Part shown: positions 4,482 through 8,421 of the stretch, piece by piece
Numbering within the stretch: position 1 is the stretch's first letter
Layout: every line of letters begins with the position of its first letter
Source: Synechococcus sp. WH 8101
GTDB lineage: Bacteria; Cyanobacteriota; Cyanobacteriia; PCC-6307; Cyanobiaceae
Assembly: GCF_004209775.1 (NCBI RefSeq)
Contig: NZ_CP035914.1
Span: 2,108,001 to 2,172,000, forward strand
Direction: 5' to 3'
DNA length: 64,000 bases
Program-made: the position numbers and the translations under genes
The notes under the pieces: model-generated
Seen by the model: the letters and a program-made list of their open reading frames with translations, nothing else
What the model was told of the DNA's origin: nothing
The model's database searches: none

Positions 4482-5202
4482 CGGCGCGGTGCCCAGCGGA
4501 AGGGAGGTCCTCCCGCTCGCCACGGTGTTGCCACGGGCCTGGATCGGATTCGGCAAAGCCCCCTGGCGCTGTGTGGGTCTGGCGGCCTTGATTCTGATCA
4601 CCCTGATGGGACCAGGGGTGCTGGCCAGCGACATGCAACGCAGTGGCTGGCCCCTGATCGCGAGCCTGGGCCACCTGCTCGTGGCCTGCAGTCTGCTGCT
4701 GCCGATCGCTCCCGCCATGGCGTTGCTGCAGCTGGCGGATCAACTGCTCCCAGGGTCAGGAGCCACTCCTGAAGGCCACAACCATCCCCAACCCATCACA
4801 AGGCTGTGGCTCTGGCGTCAGGGCGTAGCACTGCTGCTGCTCGAGCTGCTGATCCTGGCCGGCGGACTGACCGGCCTGAAGCTACTGAGCGCCCTCTTGA
4901 TCGCCCAGAGCGGCGTGTTGGCTGGAGCGGCGCTGCTCGCTGGCGGCCTTGCTCTGAGCGGCTGGACAGCCGGGCAGCTGCTGGCCTTCCCGTTGCTGGT
5001 CCATCACCGGCATCGACCTCTGGCCGCCATGGAGCACAGCAGGCGCCTGGTGAATAGCAACCGCCTCAAGGTGCTGGCCCTGATCGGCCTTCTTCTCGGG
5101 CTCAATGCCGTGGGACTGATGGGTGCCTGCCTCGGGCTGCTCGTGAGCATTCCCTTGAGTGCCTTGGTACTGATGGCCAGCTGCCGGACTCAGGCGTCCT
5201 GA
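4465..5202 (+). CDS. conserved hypothetical multi-pass membrane protein
   Basis: Up to 245 residues with about five or six hydrophobic spans: roughly residues 30-50, 63-85, 118-140, 145-172 and 205-240. No family is recognised with confidence. The ends are short, so it may be a small channel-like or accessory membrane protein. The TTG start at 4465 overlaps the EVE gene by 17 bases; a GTG at about 4489 would remove the overlap, and the start is uncertain. Its 3' end overlaps the convergent DUF2811 gene by 13 bases. Confidence 0.72.
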   Translation: MASSSNGAVPSGREVLPLATVLPRAWIGFGKAPWRCVGLAALILITLMGPGVLASDMQRSGWPLIASLGHLLVACSLLLPIAPAMALLQLADQLLPGSGATPEGHNHPQPITRLWLWRQGVALLLLELLILAGGLTGLKLLSALLIAQSGVLAGAALLAGGLALSGWTAGQLLAFPLLVHHRHRPLAAMEHSRRLVNSNRLKVLALIGLLLGLNAVGLMGACLGLLVSIPLSALVLMASCRTQAS

Positions 5203-5519
5203 AGCAAAGACTGTCGACAAAAAAGGTTGCCCACATAGAGACGGGTGATCGACCTGGAGCTGACCCCGTTCTGCACCAGAAAGCCAGCCAGTGCGGCCTG
5301 CACCAGGCGGTAGTGGTCCCAGTTGGGGTGTCGCTCGATGAAACGACGCATGGCCTGTTGGAGCGGTTCGGGAAGCTCGGTCTGAAAACTCACCGTCGCG
5401 GTTTCAGCCAGCTGGGGGGCGGGAGCTCGATGACCTGAGGGCGCCCCAACCGACACAGGCACCCGCGCTTCCGCAACCTCTCCGGTGTTCACCACCCCCA
5501 TGTCGTGCACTGACCGCAT
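5190..5519 (-). CDS. DUF2811 family protein
   Basis: 109-residue cyanobacterial protein. The C-terminal 65 residues match the DUF2811 pattern as I remember it: VSFQTELPEPLQQAMRRFIE, then HPNWDHYRLVQAALAGFLVQ, then a short tail ending in LYVGNLF. The N-terminal 40 residues are low-complexity and may be dispensable; an internal Met at 5501 is an alternative start. The function of the family is unknown. It is convergent with the preceding membrane protein and overlaps it by 13 bases. Upstream of it lies the intergenic region with DnaA-box-like motifs. Confidence 0.8.
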   Translation of the reverse strand: MRSVHDMGVVNTGEVAEARVPVSVGAPSGHRAPAPQLAETATVSFQTELPEPLQQAMRRFIERHPNWDHYRLVQAALAGFLVQNGVSSRSITRLYVGNLFCRQSLLQDA

Positions 5520-5827
5520 CCCAGACCCCTCAAACGCTCACTAGTTCTCCACACCCTGAGGGCCACGTCAAGCGACGAATTTGACGCCCTTCCAAGCGGT
5601 TCTCCCGATGAGACTCCAGGCGCAAAGCCCTTTCCTGGCCTGTGATGCGGTTAACAGCCTGAGACAAGTCGCCTCGCGCCGCCCGTCAAGGGAGCCAGAG
5701 CCAGAAAGCCAACTTTTCCACAGCCGAAGCCCAGGCGCGTCATTCCACGCAAAAACCTGTGGAAAAGCCCCTCAAGACCACGCGGTCGACCGTGGAAAAA
5801 CAAAACCAAGAAAATGATCAGTAGGGC
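5520..5827. other. 308-base intergenic region with clustered DnaA-box-like 9-mers
   Basis: No convincing gene lies in this gap; a plus-strand open frame at 5581-5817 has no protein-like pattern. It contains TTTTCCACA at 5714-5722 and its exact reverse complement TGTGGAAAA at 5758-5766. One-mismatch copies lie at 5545-5553 (TTCTCCACA) and 5791-5799 (CGTGGAAAA). TTTTCCACA is the DnaA-box form usually cited for cyanobacteria. The right end, 5793-5825, is richer in A and T than its surroundings. The region may be a DnaA-binding locus, a DnaA-regulated promoter for DUF2811, or chance. Confidence 0.5.
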
Positions 5828-6208
5828 TTATGAAGGCGGGGAGTCCCAGAGCGTTCTCACCGCTGCCGTCATCGCCTGGGCTGCGGGGGCCGGCCAGTGT
5901 CCCTCCACGCCCCGATCCCCCAGGGTGTCGCCCTGCAGAACCACCCGCAGATCCCATTGATCGCGATCACCATCGAGACACCCCCACCAGGGCAAGCGCT
6001 CCAACTCCAGGCTCAAAGCCTCTTCAGCCATCAACTGATCGACCAGCGCTCGATGCTGCTCCACCAGGGCGGTGATCAGGGAGACAAGCTCGCGCCACTC
6101 GTCTCCGGTCAACTCAAAGGCCCATCCCTCACCACCAATCAAGACGGGATAGCGACGGCGGGCAGGATCCCAGGCCAGGCGCCAACCCGGACCCTCGCGC
6201 TGAATCAT
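5828..6208 (-). CDS. DUF1818 family protein
   Basis: 126-residue soluble protein matching the cyanobacterial DUF1818 family: [20 protein letters not shown] at the N-terminus, then [21 protein letters not shown] helical segment and the [19 protein letters not shown] strand region follow, ending in a GHWPAPA motif. The fold is compact alpha+beta; the biochemical role is unknown to me. Its ATG overlaps the rpoZ stop by four bases (ATGA), so it is co-translated with the RNA polymerase omega subunit. Confidence 0.82.
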
Positions 6209-6429
6209 CCAGGCAGAAGGTCAGGTTGGTCCTGCTCGTCGCTCAGTTCAACAATGGCCCGTTGCACCGGCTTGACACTGGATTCCTCCAACAAACCATC
6301 GAAATCGTCGAAACGACGCTGCTTGGCGCGGAAGGCAATGCGCACCGTGGTGAGGTAGCGATTACTCGACTGGCGGATCAGACTTTCGCCCCGTTTGGCG
6401 AGATCCTGGGCACTGACACCGGCACTCAT
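6205..6429 (-). CDS. rpoZ: DNA-directed RNA polymerase omega subunit
   Basis: Small subunit that helps fold and hold the beta' subunit (beta'/gamma in cyanobacteria) and supports sigma use. The 74-residue protein contains the conserved [20 protein letters not shown] core and the cyanobacterial tail [21 protein letters not shown] chose ATG 6429; GTG 6432 and TTG 6438 are in frame just upstream. It lies between a 94-residue unknown gene and DUF1818 on the same strand. Confidence 0.93.
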
Positions 6430-6462
6430 CACGCGCAATCAACCGAAGCTTGATCTTTCACC

Positions 6463-6747
6463 TTAATTGAGCAGGTCGCTGTGAAAGGGAACGTGCATGG
6501 GATAGCTGCGCTGCAACGACCCCGGAACCCTGAGCACGATCTGACGGCCGAGCCCCATGGCCGCCAGGGGGCGGCGCACCAGCTCCAACAGACCACTGAT
6601 CTCCTCGAGATGACTGGCATCAAGGCACTCGATCCGAACACTGCCCCAGCTGCGCGAGATCCTGCAATCCCGCAGCGGTTCGAGCTTCGCCTCCAGCAGC
6701 GGCTCCTCGCGGTAAAAGGACAACACCAGACGCTGCAAGCGGTCCAT
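6463..6747 (-). CDS. conserved hypothetical protein upstream of rpoZ
   Basis: 94-residue soluble protein starting MDRLQRLVLSFYREEPLLEA at ATG 6747. It has an alternating strand/helix look (RISRSWGSVRIECLDAS, then HLEEISGLLELVRRPLAAMG, then QIVLRVPGSLQRSYPM) without hydrophobic spans. I do not recognise the family. The stop is 33 bases before rpoZ, so it is probably the first gene of a rpoZ-DUF1818 unit. It is divergent from the Hsp70-like gene with only 39 bases between start codons, so the promoters must overlap. A longer frame upstream exists but runs into the Hsp70 gene and is not credible. Confidence 0.72.
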   Translation of the reverse strand: MDRLQRLVLSFYREEPLLEAKLEPLRDCRISRSWGSVRIECLDASHLEEISGLLELVRRPLAAMGLGRQIVLRVPGSLQRSYPMHVPFHSDLLN

Positions 6748-6786
6748 ACCGATCCTCTTTAGTCTCACCACTTCTCCAACCTGCCC

Positions 6787-8421
6787 ATGGCAGCGGATCC
6801 CCCCCCGGCGGACGAAGAAAACCTTCAGGTTTCCCCCCGCAGCGGCACCCTGGCCATCGACCTCGGCAGCACCACCACCGTGGTGGCCTTCCAGGCGGAT
6901 GGCTCCAGGCACCTGGAACCGGTCGATCTGCCACCGATCAGCCGCACACCAGGCGAAGTTCCCAGCCTGTTGTGGCTCAAAGACAGCCATGACCCCCACC
7001 CCCTGGTGGGCCGCCAGGTGATCGACAGTGGCCTGAATGCCTGGGACGGGCCGGAACTGCTCAGGGATTTCAAACGCTCGATCGCAGGCAGCTGCCCAGA
7101 ACCAGGCGAGGCCCGCCGCAATCTCTCGGCGCAGGAGGCGGCGGAACGGTTACTGGCAGAGATCTGGCGTCGCCTACCGAACCGACTGAACGTGCACCGC
7201 TTGGTGCTGACAGCGCCGATCGACCATTACCGCGGCTATCGCCACTGGTTGGTGCGTGCCTGCCAGGCGCTGCCCGTCGACGCCATCGCCCTGGTGGATG
7301 AGCCAACGGCAGCGGCCCTCGGCGCGGGATTACCTCCCGGCTCCAAGCTGCTGGTGGTGGATCTGGGGGGGAGCACCATCGACATGGCGTTGGTGGCCCT
7401 AGAGGGGGGCGAAGGACGGGCAGCGCCTCTGGCCCAGCTGCTGCGCTTCAACGGCCGGATGCTGGGAAACAGTCGTCAGGCCCTTCGCTGCGCCAAGGTG
7501 CTGGGAAAAGCAGGCTTGCGCCTGGGCGGCAGGGATCTGGACCACTGGATCCTCGATCACCTCACAGGCGCGAGCCCTACCGCTGAGGGCGTGTTGCCGA
7601 TGGCCCTGCTCAATGCGGCGGAGCGGCTGAAATGCCGCCTGAGCGACCCTGACCTCGATGGGCAGACCACCGTCACGGAACTCGCCGTCGCCGGCGATGG
7701 TGCGGCGCCCTGTGAGCTGCGTCTGAACCGAGAGGAACTGAACCGTTTGCTCCATGAGCGCGGCCTGGTTGAAGCCCTGGATGATCTGCTGGAGCAGACC
7801 CTCGCCGGCGGCCGCCGCCACGGGGTGAACCTGGAGGACCTTCAGGGGGTGATGGCGGTTGGAGGCGGCGCTCGACTGCCCCTTCTGCGCGACTGGCTGG
7901 AACGACGCACCAGGCCCGTTCCCCTGCTCACTCCCGCCCCGGTGGAGGCGGTCGCCCGTGGTGCCCTGGCCCTGACCCCGGGTGTTCAGATCCGGGACGT
8001 GCTGCGTCACGGTGTCTCCCTGCGCTGCTGGGACCGACGCAGCAACCGCCATCATTGGCACCCGCTGTTCATGGCTGGACAGACCTGGCCCACCACCACG
8101 CCCCTGGAGATCGTCCTCGCCGCAGGATGTGACGAACAGAGACAGGTGGAGCTTGTGCTGGGGGAACCCGAGGTGGTCGCACACCACGACGTGGTGTTCC
8201 GCCACGGCTTGCCGACCCTGCAGTCCAGTGATCGCGCCCCCCGCATCCGTGCCTGGGATGGCGACCCTGTCGCCGTGCCGCTCCAGCCAGCGGGAACAGC
8301 AGGGGAAGACTGCCTGCGACTGCGTTGGTCTCTCGACGATGCATCTCAGCTGCGCGTGGAGATCGAGGATCTCCGCAACGGCAAGGCCCTGCCGTCGCTC
8401 GTCCTCGGCACCGTGAGATGA
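6787..8421 (+). CDS. Hsp70-like (DnaK-family) ATPase, divergent and short
   Basis: 544 residues with the actin-like ATPase fold of Hsp70. Phosphate-1 loop LAIDLGSTTTVVAFQ is at about 23-37, connect-1 LVDEPTAAALGAG follows, phosphate-2 LLVVDLGGSTIDMALV is near 190, and the adenosine motif MAVGGGARLPLLRDWL is near 358-373. The C-terminal part, about residues 395-544, is only 150 residues, shorter than the substrate and lid domains of DnaK (about 610-640 residues overall). There is no EEVD-like tail. This suggests a specialised Hsp70 relative and not a housekeeping DnaK. No grpE or dnaJ is adjacent. The next gene encodes a membrane-anchored helical protein in the same direction, a possible partner. 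Confidence 0.88.
   Translation: MAADPPPADEENLQVSPRSGTLAIDLGSTTTVVAFQADGSRHLEPVDLPPISRTPGEVPSLLWLKDSHDPHPLVGRQVIDSGLNAWDGPELLRDFKRSIAGSCPEPGEARRNLSAQEAAERLLAEIWRRLPNRLNVHRLVLTAPIDHYRGYRHWLVRACQALPVDAIALVDEPTAAALGAGLPPGSKLLVVDLGGSTIDMALVALEGGEGRAAPLAQLLRFNGRMLGNSRQALRCAKVLGKAGLRLGGRDLDHWILDHLTGASPTAEGVLPMALLNAAERLKCRLSDPDLDGQTTVTELAVAGDGAAPCELRLNREELNRLLHERGLVEALDDLLEQTLAGGRRHGVNLEDLQGVMAVGGGARLPLLRDWLERRTRPVPLLTPAPVEAVARGALALTPGVQIRDVLRHGVSLRCWDRRSNRHHWHPLFMAGQTWPTTTPLEIVLAAGCDEQRQVELVLGEPEVVAHHDVVFRHGLPTLQSSDRAPRIRAWDGDPVAVPLQPAGTAGEDCLRLRWSLDDASQLRVEIEDLRNGKALPSLVLGTVR

Follow-up and report, generated by a model that had tools for sequence, protein, structure and literature searches.

DnaA-regulated genes that carry DnaA boxes upstream are known from the DnaA regulons of Bacillus subtilis and Escherichia coli, and among these we take B. 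subtilis sda, which encodes a small protein under DnaA-box control, to be the nearest parallel to the locus described in this study. Other box clusters, namely datA, DARS, and the DnaA-box clusters of B. subtilis, titrate or reset DnaA. The datA and DARS loci combine DnaA boxes with IHF (and Fis) sites and promote ATP hydrolysis or nucleotide exchange on DnaA. For cyanobacteria, the 9-mer TTTTCCACA is documented as the DnaA box in the accessible part of PMC4674748.

In the current study, an array of such boxes upstream of a gene of the uncharacterised DUF2811 family was compared with these systems, and it is predicted to be an extra-oriC DnaA-box cluster of the DnaA-regulon kind. Several boxes matching the organism's own DnaA box lie outside oriC, and they hold a consistent position upstream of DUF2811 (94 of 111 loci, 32 families; the exceptions are G043, G458, one G503 copy, and L388). 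As in the DnaA regulons of B. subtilis and E. coli, a cluster of closely set sites outside oriC precedes one gene. Unlike in these regulons, the array is kept across a whole bacterial class and tied to an uncharacterised family, there are often two or four helical turns between its boxes, and many arrays lie 250–550 nt from DUF2811, which is far for simple promoter occlusion. E. coli DnaA prefers box pairs 2–3 bp apart, as stated in the available portion of PMC11317965, and this corresponds to 11–12 nt from start to start.

The array resembles E. coli datA, DARS1, and DARS2 and the titration clusters in consisting of non-coding DnaA boxes away from oriC, at mid-replichore in the window's relatives; unlike datA and DARS, it is linked to a gene and its paralogues, and its position is not conserved outside the family Cyanobiaceae. 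With the cyanobacterial oriC at dnaN it shares the 9-mer and the tandem, phased boxes, whereas the DUF2811 locus has neither a skew switch nor dnaN.

The box cluster in the DUF2811–DUF1818 gap

The window, that is, the whole 64-kb stretch of DNA that was analysed, contains a gap of 308 nt between the DUF2811 and DUF1818 genes. The features of the gap and its neighbours are as follows:

5190..5519, minus strand: DUF2811 (PF10929) gene, 109 aa, Pfam E 4.6e-28; the boxes travel with this gene
5520..5827, no strand: predicted intergenic regulatory region, from the DUF2811 start codon to the DUF1818 stop codon, from the alignment of 30 loci
5545..5553, plus strand: DnaA-box-like site TTCTCCACA, present in 29 of 30 loci, columns 0.97–1.0 conserved
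5714..5722, plus strand: DnaA box TTTTCCACA, proximal member of the inverted pair, facing away from DUF2811; exact match, aligned
5758..5766, minus strand: DnaA box TTTTCCACA, distal member of the pair, facing DUF2811; exact match, aligned
5791..5799, minus strand: weaker box TTTTCCACG, columns 0.60–1.0 conserved
5828..6208, minus strand: DUF1818 (PF08848) gene, Pfam E 3.1e-37; its 3' end borders the gap
6205..6438, minus strand: rpoZ (PF01192), Pfam E 4.5e-8; a neighbour, untied to the boxes outside the family

As rpoZ, DUF1818, and DUF2811 are all on the minus strand, the gap lies upstream of DUF2811 and downstream of DUF1818. The initial annotation had placed four sites here, and all four were found as described: two exact copies of TTTTCCACA, inverted with 35 nt between them, and two one-mismatch copies, TTCTCCACA and TTTTCCACG. 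At TTCTCCACA, the distance to the start codon of DUF2811 is 26 nt and that to the main pair ~169 nt, while TTTTCCACG lies 33 nt from the 5758 box and shares its orientation.

The 9-mer is in excess within the cluster and not across the genome. For four boxes in 255 nt, 0.026 copies are expected (Poisson, P of four or more ~2e-8; ~2e-4 once the whole genome is allowed for). Genome-wide, the count is unremarkable, an outcome that the initial annotation had named as a refutation, with 10 exact copies of TTTTCCACA in 2.63 Mb versus 12 of the reversed 9-mer, and 265 versus 254 when up to one mismatch is accepted; the whole window holds seven matches with up to one mismatch versus a shuffle mean of 5.85.

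The box cluster is real, since it is conserved in 30 loci, and this conservation settles the question. The alignment comprised the window's own genome and 29 relatives retrieved via DUF1818 protein similarity, one locus per genome, of which 27 belong to the same genus and three to other genera of the family; DUF1818 itself was present in 58 of the 60 relatives' genomes. Contrary to a second refuting outcome named there, the boxes were kept throughout these relatives: at least one exact TTTTCCACA was present in all 30 loci, TTCTCCACA in 29, and the exact inverted pair in 27, at 44–45 nt from start to start. Each of the 27 columns in the three main boxes was at least 90% conserved, versus 31 of the 272 gap columns outside the boxes.

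Within the wider family, the exact pair with 30–40 nt between its members occurred in 158 of 400 genomes and 23 of 59 genera, and a relaxed pair (TTYTCCMCA ... TGKGGARAA, 34–37 nt) in 34 of 59 Cyanobiaceae genomes taken one per genus, with no control match in any row of these searches. The relaxed pair was found nowhere in the genome in the other 25 of the 59, although several of these retain boxes near DUF2811 that are single or mismatched. In some high-GC genera, the sequence has drifted to TTCTCCCCA or TTTTCCCCA, with the spacing about unchanged. Among 30 loci retrieved by means of the exact pair (L072–L101), which were selected for the pair and so excluded from its frequency, DUF1818 was present in 29 of the stretches and DUF2811 in 28. 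A count over 99 loci, in which loci of this kind were combined with others selected against the pair, was likewise set aside.

Two RNA readings of the gap were rejected. For a structured RNA, no Rfam match was found at E ≤ 1 in window positions 4800–7000. An RNA hairpin formed by the inverted pair is disfavoured by one-arm changes in L012, L024, and L009 that are unmatched in the other arm (alignment, by eye), and, as these changes are uncompensated, the inverted arms are taken as protein sites.

Other elements were also noted in the gap. The motif CGTCAAG occurs twice (5566–5572 and 5684–5690) with a TCTC-N4-TGAGA-like palindrome between (5601–5613), and parts of these elements are at least 90% conserved in the 30 loci. 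Read on the DUF2811 strand, CGTCAA is TTGACG, which is –35-like, with no –10 element recognised; a search for sigma-70-like promoters in window positions 5100–6500 found none. At window positions 5800–5830 (~1460–1500 in the aligned loci), many relatives have an inverted repeat rich in AT that borders the gap (AATCAAT...ATTGATT, followed by GATTAG...CTAATC over the DUF1818 stop codon) and is degraded in the window's genome. Its arms seem to co-vary, and it may be a terminator of rpoZ–DUF1818 or a protein site.

Linkage of the boxes to DUF2811 across the class

Among 146 sampled genomes of the class, 143 matched PF10929 and 144 matched the DnaA C-terminal domain; G424 and G529 carry dnaA and had no DUF2811 match. 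Outside the family, 127 genomes had a DUF2811 match; 111 of these, from 32 other families, supplied the 111 loci used here (16 not included), and in multi-copy genomes mostly the best-scoring DUF2811 copy was used. Within 700 nt upstream of DUF2811, at least one exact TTTTCCACA was found in the 94 loci mentioned above and at least two in 79 of the 111, and 26 of the 32 families had an exact box at DUF2811. In total, there were 220 exact copies upstream versus six downstream, and three of the reversed 9-mer. A second set, formed by the best 80 of 440 named loci and overlapping the 111 loci in part, gave an exact box in 72 of 77 and 134 exact copies upstream versus none downstream.

With a set of seven box variants, which was picked after seeing the data, the 111 loci contained 405 boxes versus 4.1 in mononucleotide shuffles; at least two boxes were present in 105 loci and at least three in 91, and 367 of the 405 faced DUF2811. 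In this set, 197 of 232 same-strand neighbour pairs had a spacing of 11, 21, or 22 nt, and 26 of 30 opposite-strand pairs one of 44–46 nt. The window's locus fits the class layout, as the boxes at 5791 and 5758 face DUF2811, 33 nt apart, and the inverted 5714 box follows 44 nt on.

A clear array near DUF2811 was absent, despite the presence of dnaA, in G043 (one TTTTCCCCA at –723) and G458 (one TTTTCCCCA at –457). In G503, which also bears dnaA, two DUF2811 copies were compared, and one had no box and the other had two. L388 (Baaleninema simplex PCC 7105) has four phased boxes 1.64–1.70 kb upstream of DUF2811, outside the 700 nt searched, and the sequence of G426 covered only 280 nt upstream.

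The boxes belong to DUF2811, because they stay upstream of it where the neighbours differ or where paralogues exist. DUF1818 was seen as a neighbour of DUF2811 only in Cyanobiaceae, as far as the loci seen extend. Pairs lie 251 and 254 nt upstream of two DUF2811 copies in G063, and 161 and 295 nt upstream of DUF2811 paralogues in G096 and G159, respectively; in G062 the pair is 209 nt upstream, although the distance between DUF2811 and DUF1818 has grown to 1.2 kb. Loci from three other families (L206, L209, and L211) also have the pair, exact or relaxed, 191–483 nt upstream of DUF2811.

The window's own genome has four DUF2811 genes. The three further paralogues (contig C1 of G000, 1152294–1152464, 1225093–1225263, and 1273526–1273696) have six boxes with up to one mismatch in 3 × 700 nt upstream, versus 0.21 expected, and in two of the three the boxes are phased at 21 and 11 nt. 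Three of this genome's ten exact TTTTCCACA copies lie upstream of DUF2811 genes, one of them at 1273980 before a paralogue, and two lie inside DUF2811 paralogues (1152454 and 1273686). A link of the boxes to rpoZ–DUF1818 was rejected, as the DUF1818 neighbourhoods of nine non-family genomes (L062 and L064–L071) were without the pair.

Based on the sequence comparisons, we read the gap as the picocyanobacterial form of a cyanobacteria-wide, predicted DnaA-binding regulatory region of the DUF2811 gene, with a probability of about 0.6. The candidate DnaA-controlled promoter proposed in the initial annotation is the best supported reading, and the gene that it would control is DUF2811, as the boxes stay with this gene where rpoZ–DUF1818 and other neighbours differ. 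Boxes on one helix face (11, 21–22, or 33 nt apart) would load DnaA cooperatively, and their helical phasing gives the one-face spacing expected for such loading; in some lineages, the array would be closed by an inverted box 44–46 nt nearer the gene. Occupancy of the array would depend on how much DnaA is present or on its nucleotide state and would change DUF2811 transcription, and our guess at the sign of this control is repression. The sequences show the boxes, how they are conserved and spaced, their linkage to DUF2811, and the parallel with the presence of dnaA; DnaA binding here, its effect on transcription, and a role of DUF2811 in replication or the cell cycle are what we infer.

The main rival, which we regard as rather unlikely, is a DnaA reservoir or activity-setting locus that titrates or resets DnaA, to which DUF2811 is adjoined through acting on the complex or through old linkage. 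The consensus, phased boxes away from oriC would suit such a locus, as would their better match, in the window's genus, compared with those at the dnaN origin, and the distance to dnaN, which in 16 family members amounts to 0.196–0.285 of the genome. According to the portion of PMC12371093 available, DnaA is titrated in E. coli by the chromosome, datA and DARS being part of it. However, the distance to dnaN varies outside the family (0.028, 0.264, 0.332, and 0.345 of the genome in four genomes), a single genome can carry boxes before several of its DUF2811 paralogues, and a reservoir requires no fixed gene, orientation, or paralogues. A regulatory region and a reservoir cannot be told apart by sequence; control of DUF2811 is favoured over a free-standing reservoir because the boxes are linked to DUF2811 and its paralogues.

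DnaA as the predicted reader and the position of the origin

Concerning the protein that reads the boxes, the box sequence was found to follow the organism's DnaA and to be lost with dnaA, as judged from one dnaN locus of family f16 and two related genomes without dnaA. In f16, TTATCCACA lies upstream of DUF2811 in all seven genomes, and the dnaN region, taken from one genome, contains nine TTATCCACA and no TTTTCCACA; in the one genome of family f30, TTATCCACA is likewise found at DUF2811. G528 has DUF2811 and no dnaA match; the 700 nt before its DUF2811 gene are free of boxes, and only two scattered box variants occur within 6 kb upstream. L335, a Halothece MAG, has also kept DUF2811 with no dnaA match and no box in 700 nt upstream. 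As their DUF2811 proteins are 86% identical, the two genomes are close relatives and probably represent one loss. G522 has neither DUF2811 nor a match to the DnaA C-terminal domain. The absence of the array parallels the absence of dnaA, which is a pointed observation in small numbers, from two related genomes, one of them a MAG, which can miss genes. Beside this, G528, the L335 genome, and G522 are possibly dnaA losses beyond the Geminocystis/Cyanobacterium group described in the accessible part of PMC7198777.

The second DnaA-binding locus suggested by the initial annotation gains support, as a prediction, from the conservation, the helical spacing, the box switch at both f16 loci, and the absence of the array in the two dnaA-less genomes. 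A reader other than DnaA, for example DUF2811 itself, is improbable. It would agree with the strict linkage of the boxes to DUF2811, whose sequence resembles a ribbon-helix-helix (RHH) protein by eye, but it is opposed by the 9-mer being the cyanobacterial DnaA box in the source cited above, by the f16 switch to TTATCCACA at both the DUF2811 and dnaN loci, by the two genomes that have DUF2811 without dnaA or boxes, and by a DUF2811 model without a convincing fold match. The first model of DUF2811 was poor (pLDDT 54.5); the second, of 72 residues (pLDDT 75.3, pTM 0.55), consists of helices only. This model had no Foldseek match with E ≤ 0.001, and its best VIA-align match (Z 3.9) was not an RHH protein; no RHH chain was among the matches listed, and DUF2811 may still have that fold. 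No solved relative of DUF2811 was found, and in NCBIfam none of the four proteins tried (DUF2811, DUF1818, and two more neighbours) had a match.

The gap was also proposed to be an unrecognised origin element, and a second or alternative replication origin at this place is very improbable. The phased boxes resemble oriC arrays, and AT-rich inverted repeats stand beside the boxes in many relatives. Against this, GC skew, followed in 20 sampled 20-kb stretches and the window, has positive values from base 1 up to 1.19 Mb and negative ones from 1.30 Mb onwards. Its sign switches at two places only, namely at dnaN (contig base 25) and in the 1.19–1.30 Mb interval, although the skew is low at some points (0.003 at 0.26 Mb). 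Over the first 5 kb of the window, the skew is close to zero, and after that it is mostly slightly negative, without switching sign at the locus. The gap does not adjoin dnaN, as the initial annotation had stated; dnaN is ~517 kb away. No dnaN was present in any of the 30 DUF2811 loci tested, and all seven dnaN loci examined outside the family had box arrays of their own. The oriC of Prochlorococcus was placed at dnaN from GC skew, in the order thrC-oriC-dnaN, in the part of PMC2836286 at hand, and the gene upstream of the window genome's own dnaN encodes a PALP-family enzyme, which is consistent with this order.

Finally, a chance cluster or another kind of constraint, which the genome-wide parity of the 9-mer and its reverse might suggest, is refuted by the 220 exact boxes upstream versus six downstream in the 111 loci and by the pair searches, in which no row had a control match.

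Upstream of the window genome's own dnaN there are two one-mismatch boxes and no exact TTTTCCACA, and the dnaN region is without an exact copy in 22 of 23 congeneric genomes, G017 having one, whereas the DUF2811 locus has exact boxes. The picocyanobacterial dnaN origin (G000 2629900–2630292 and 1–25; L051 and L001) contains almost only mismatched boxes, and the better matches are at DUF2811. The oriC of the window's genus may be a low-affinity origin. Because consensus boxes are found here and only mismatched boxes at the dnaN origin, the DUF2811 locus of this genus would fill at a lower level of DnaA than oriC, and it could be an early sensor.

DUF2811 as a possible DnaA partner

The predicted regulatory region gives the DUF2811 family its first functional lead and suggests a connection of this gene with replication control. 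The names 'DUF2811' and 'PF10929' were found in no paper in the literature covered, which was partial, most subscription papers being outside it. In the literature on DnaA in cyanobacteria, covered to the same extent, nothing was found on the DUF2811 locus; datA was barely covered, as the term also matches 'data'.

An array that precedes one gene throughout the class and is missing from the dnaA-less genomes that were found provides a concrete target for DnaA, and it suggests a sensor of DnaA level in Prochlorococcus-like cells. As a tentative suggestion, DUF2811 may be a cyanobacteria-specific partner of DnaA: DnaA bound to the phased array would set the level of DUF2811, which would in turn restrain or license initiation or another DnaA output, and this feedback loop would replace the known DnaA regulators. 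Where DnaA is dispensable for replication, control of DUF2811 could explain why dnaA is retained. The available text of PMC7198777 describes as unclear what role DnaA has in cyanobacteria whose replication does not need it, and the array together with DUF2811 is a direct candidate for this role.

In many other cyanobacteria, an ORF of the UPF0093 family, which we take to be HemJ, was seen by eye downstream of DUF2811, and both of the two ORFs tested matched UPF0093.
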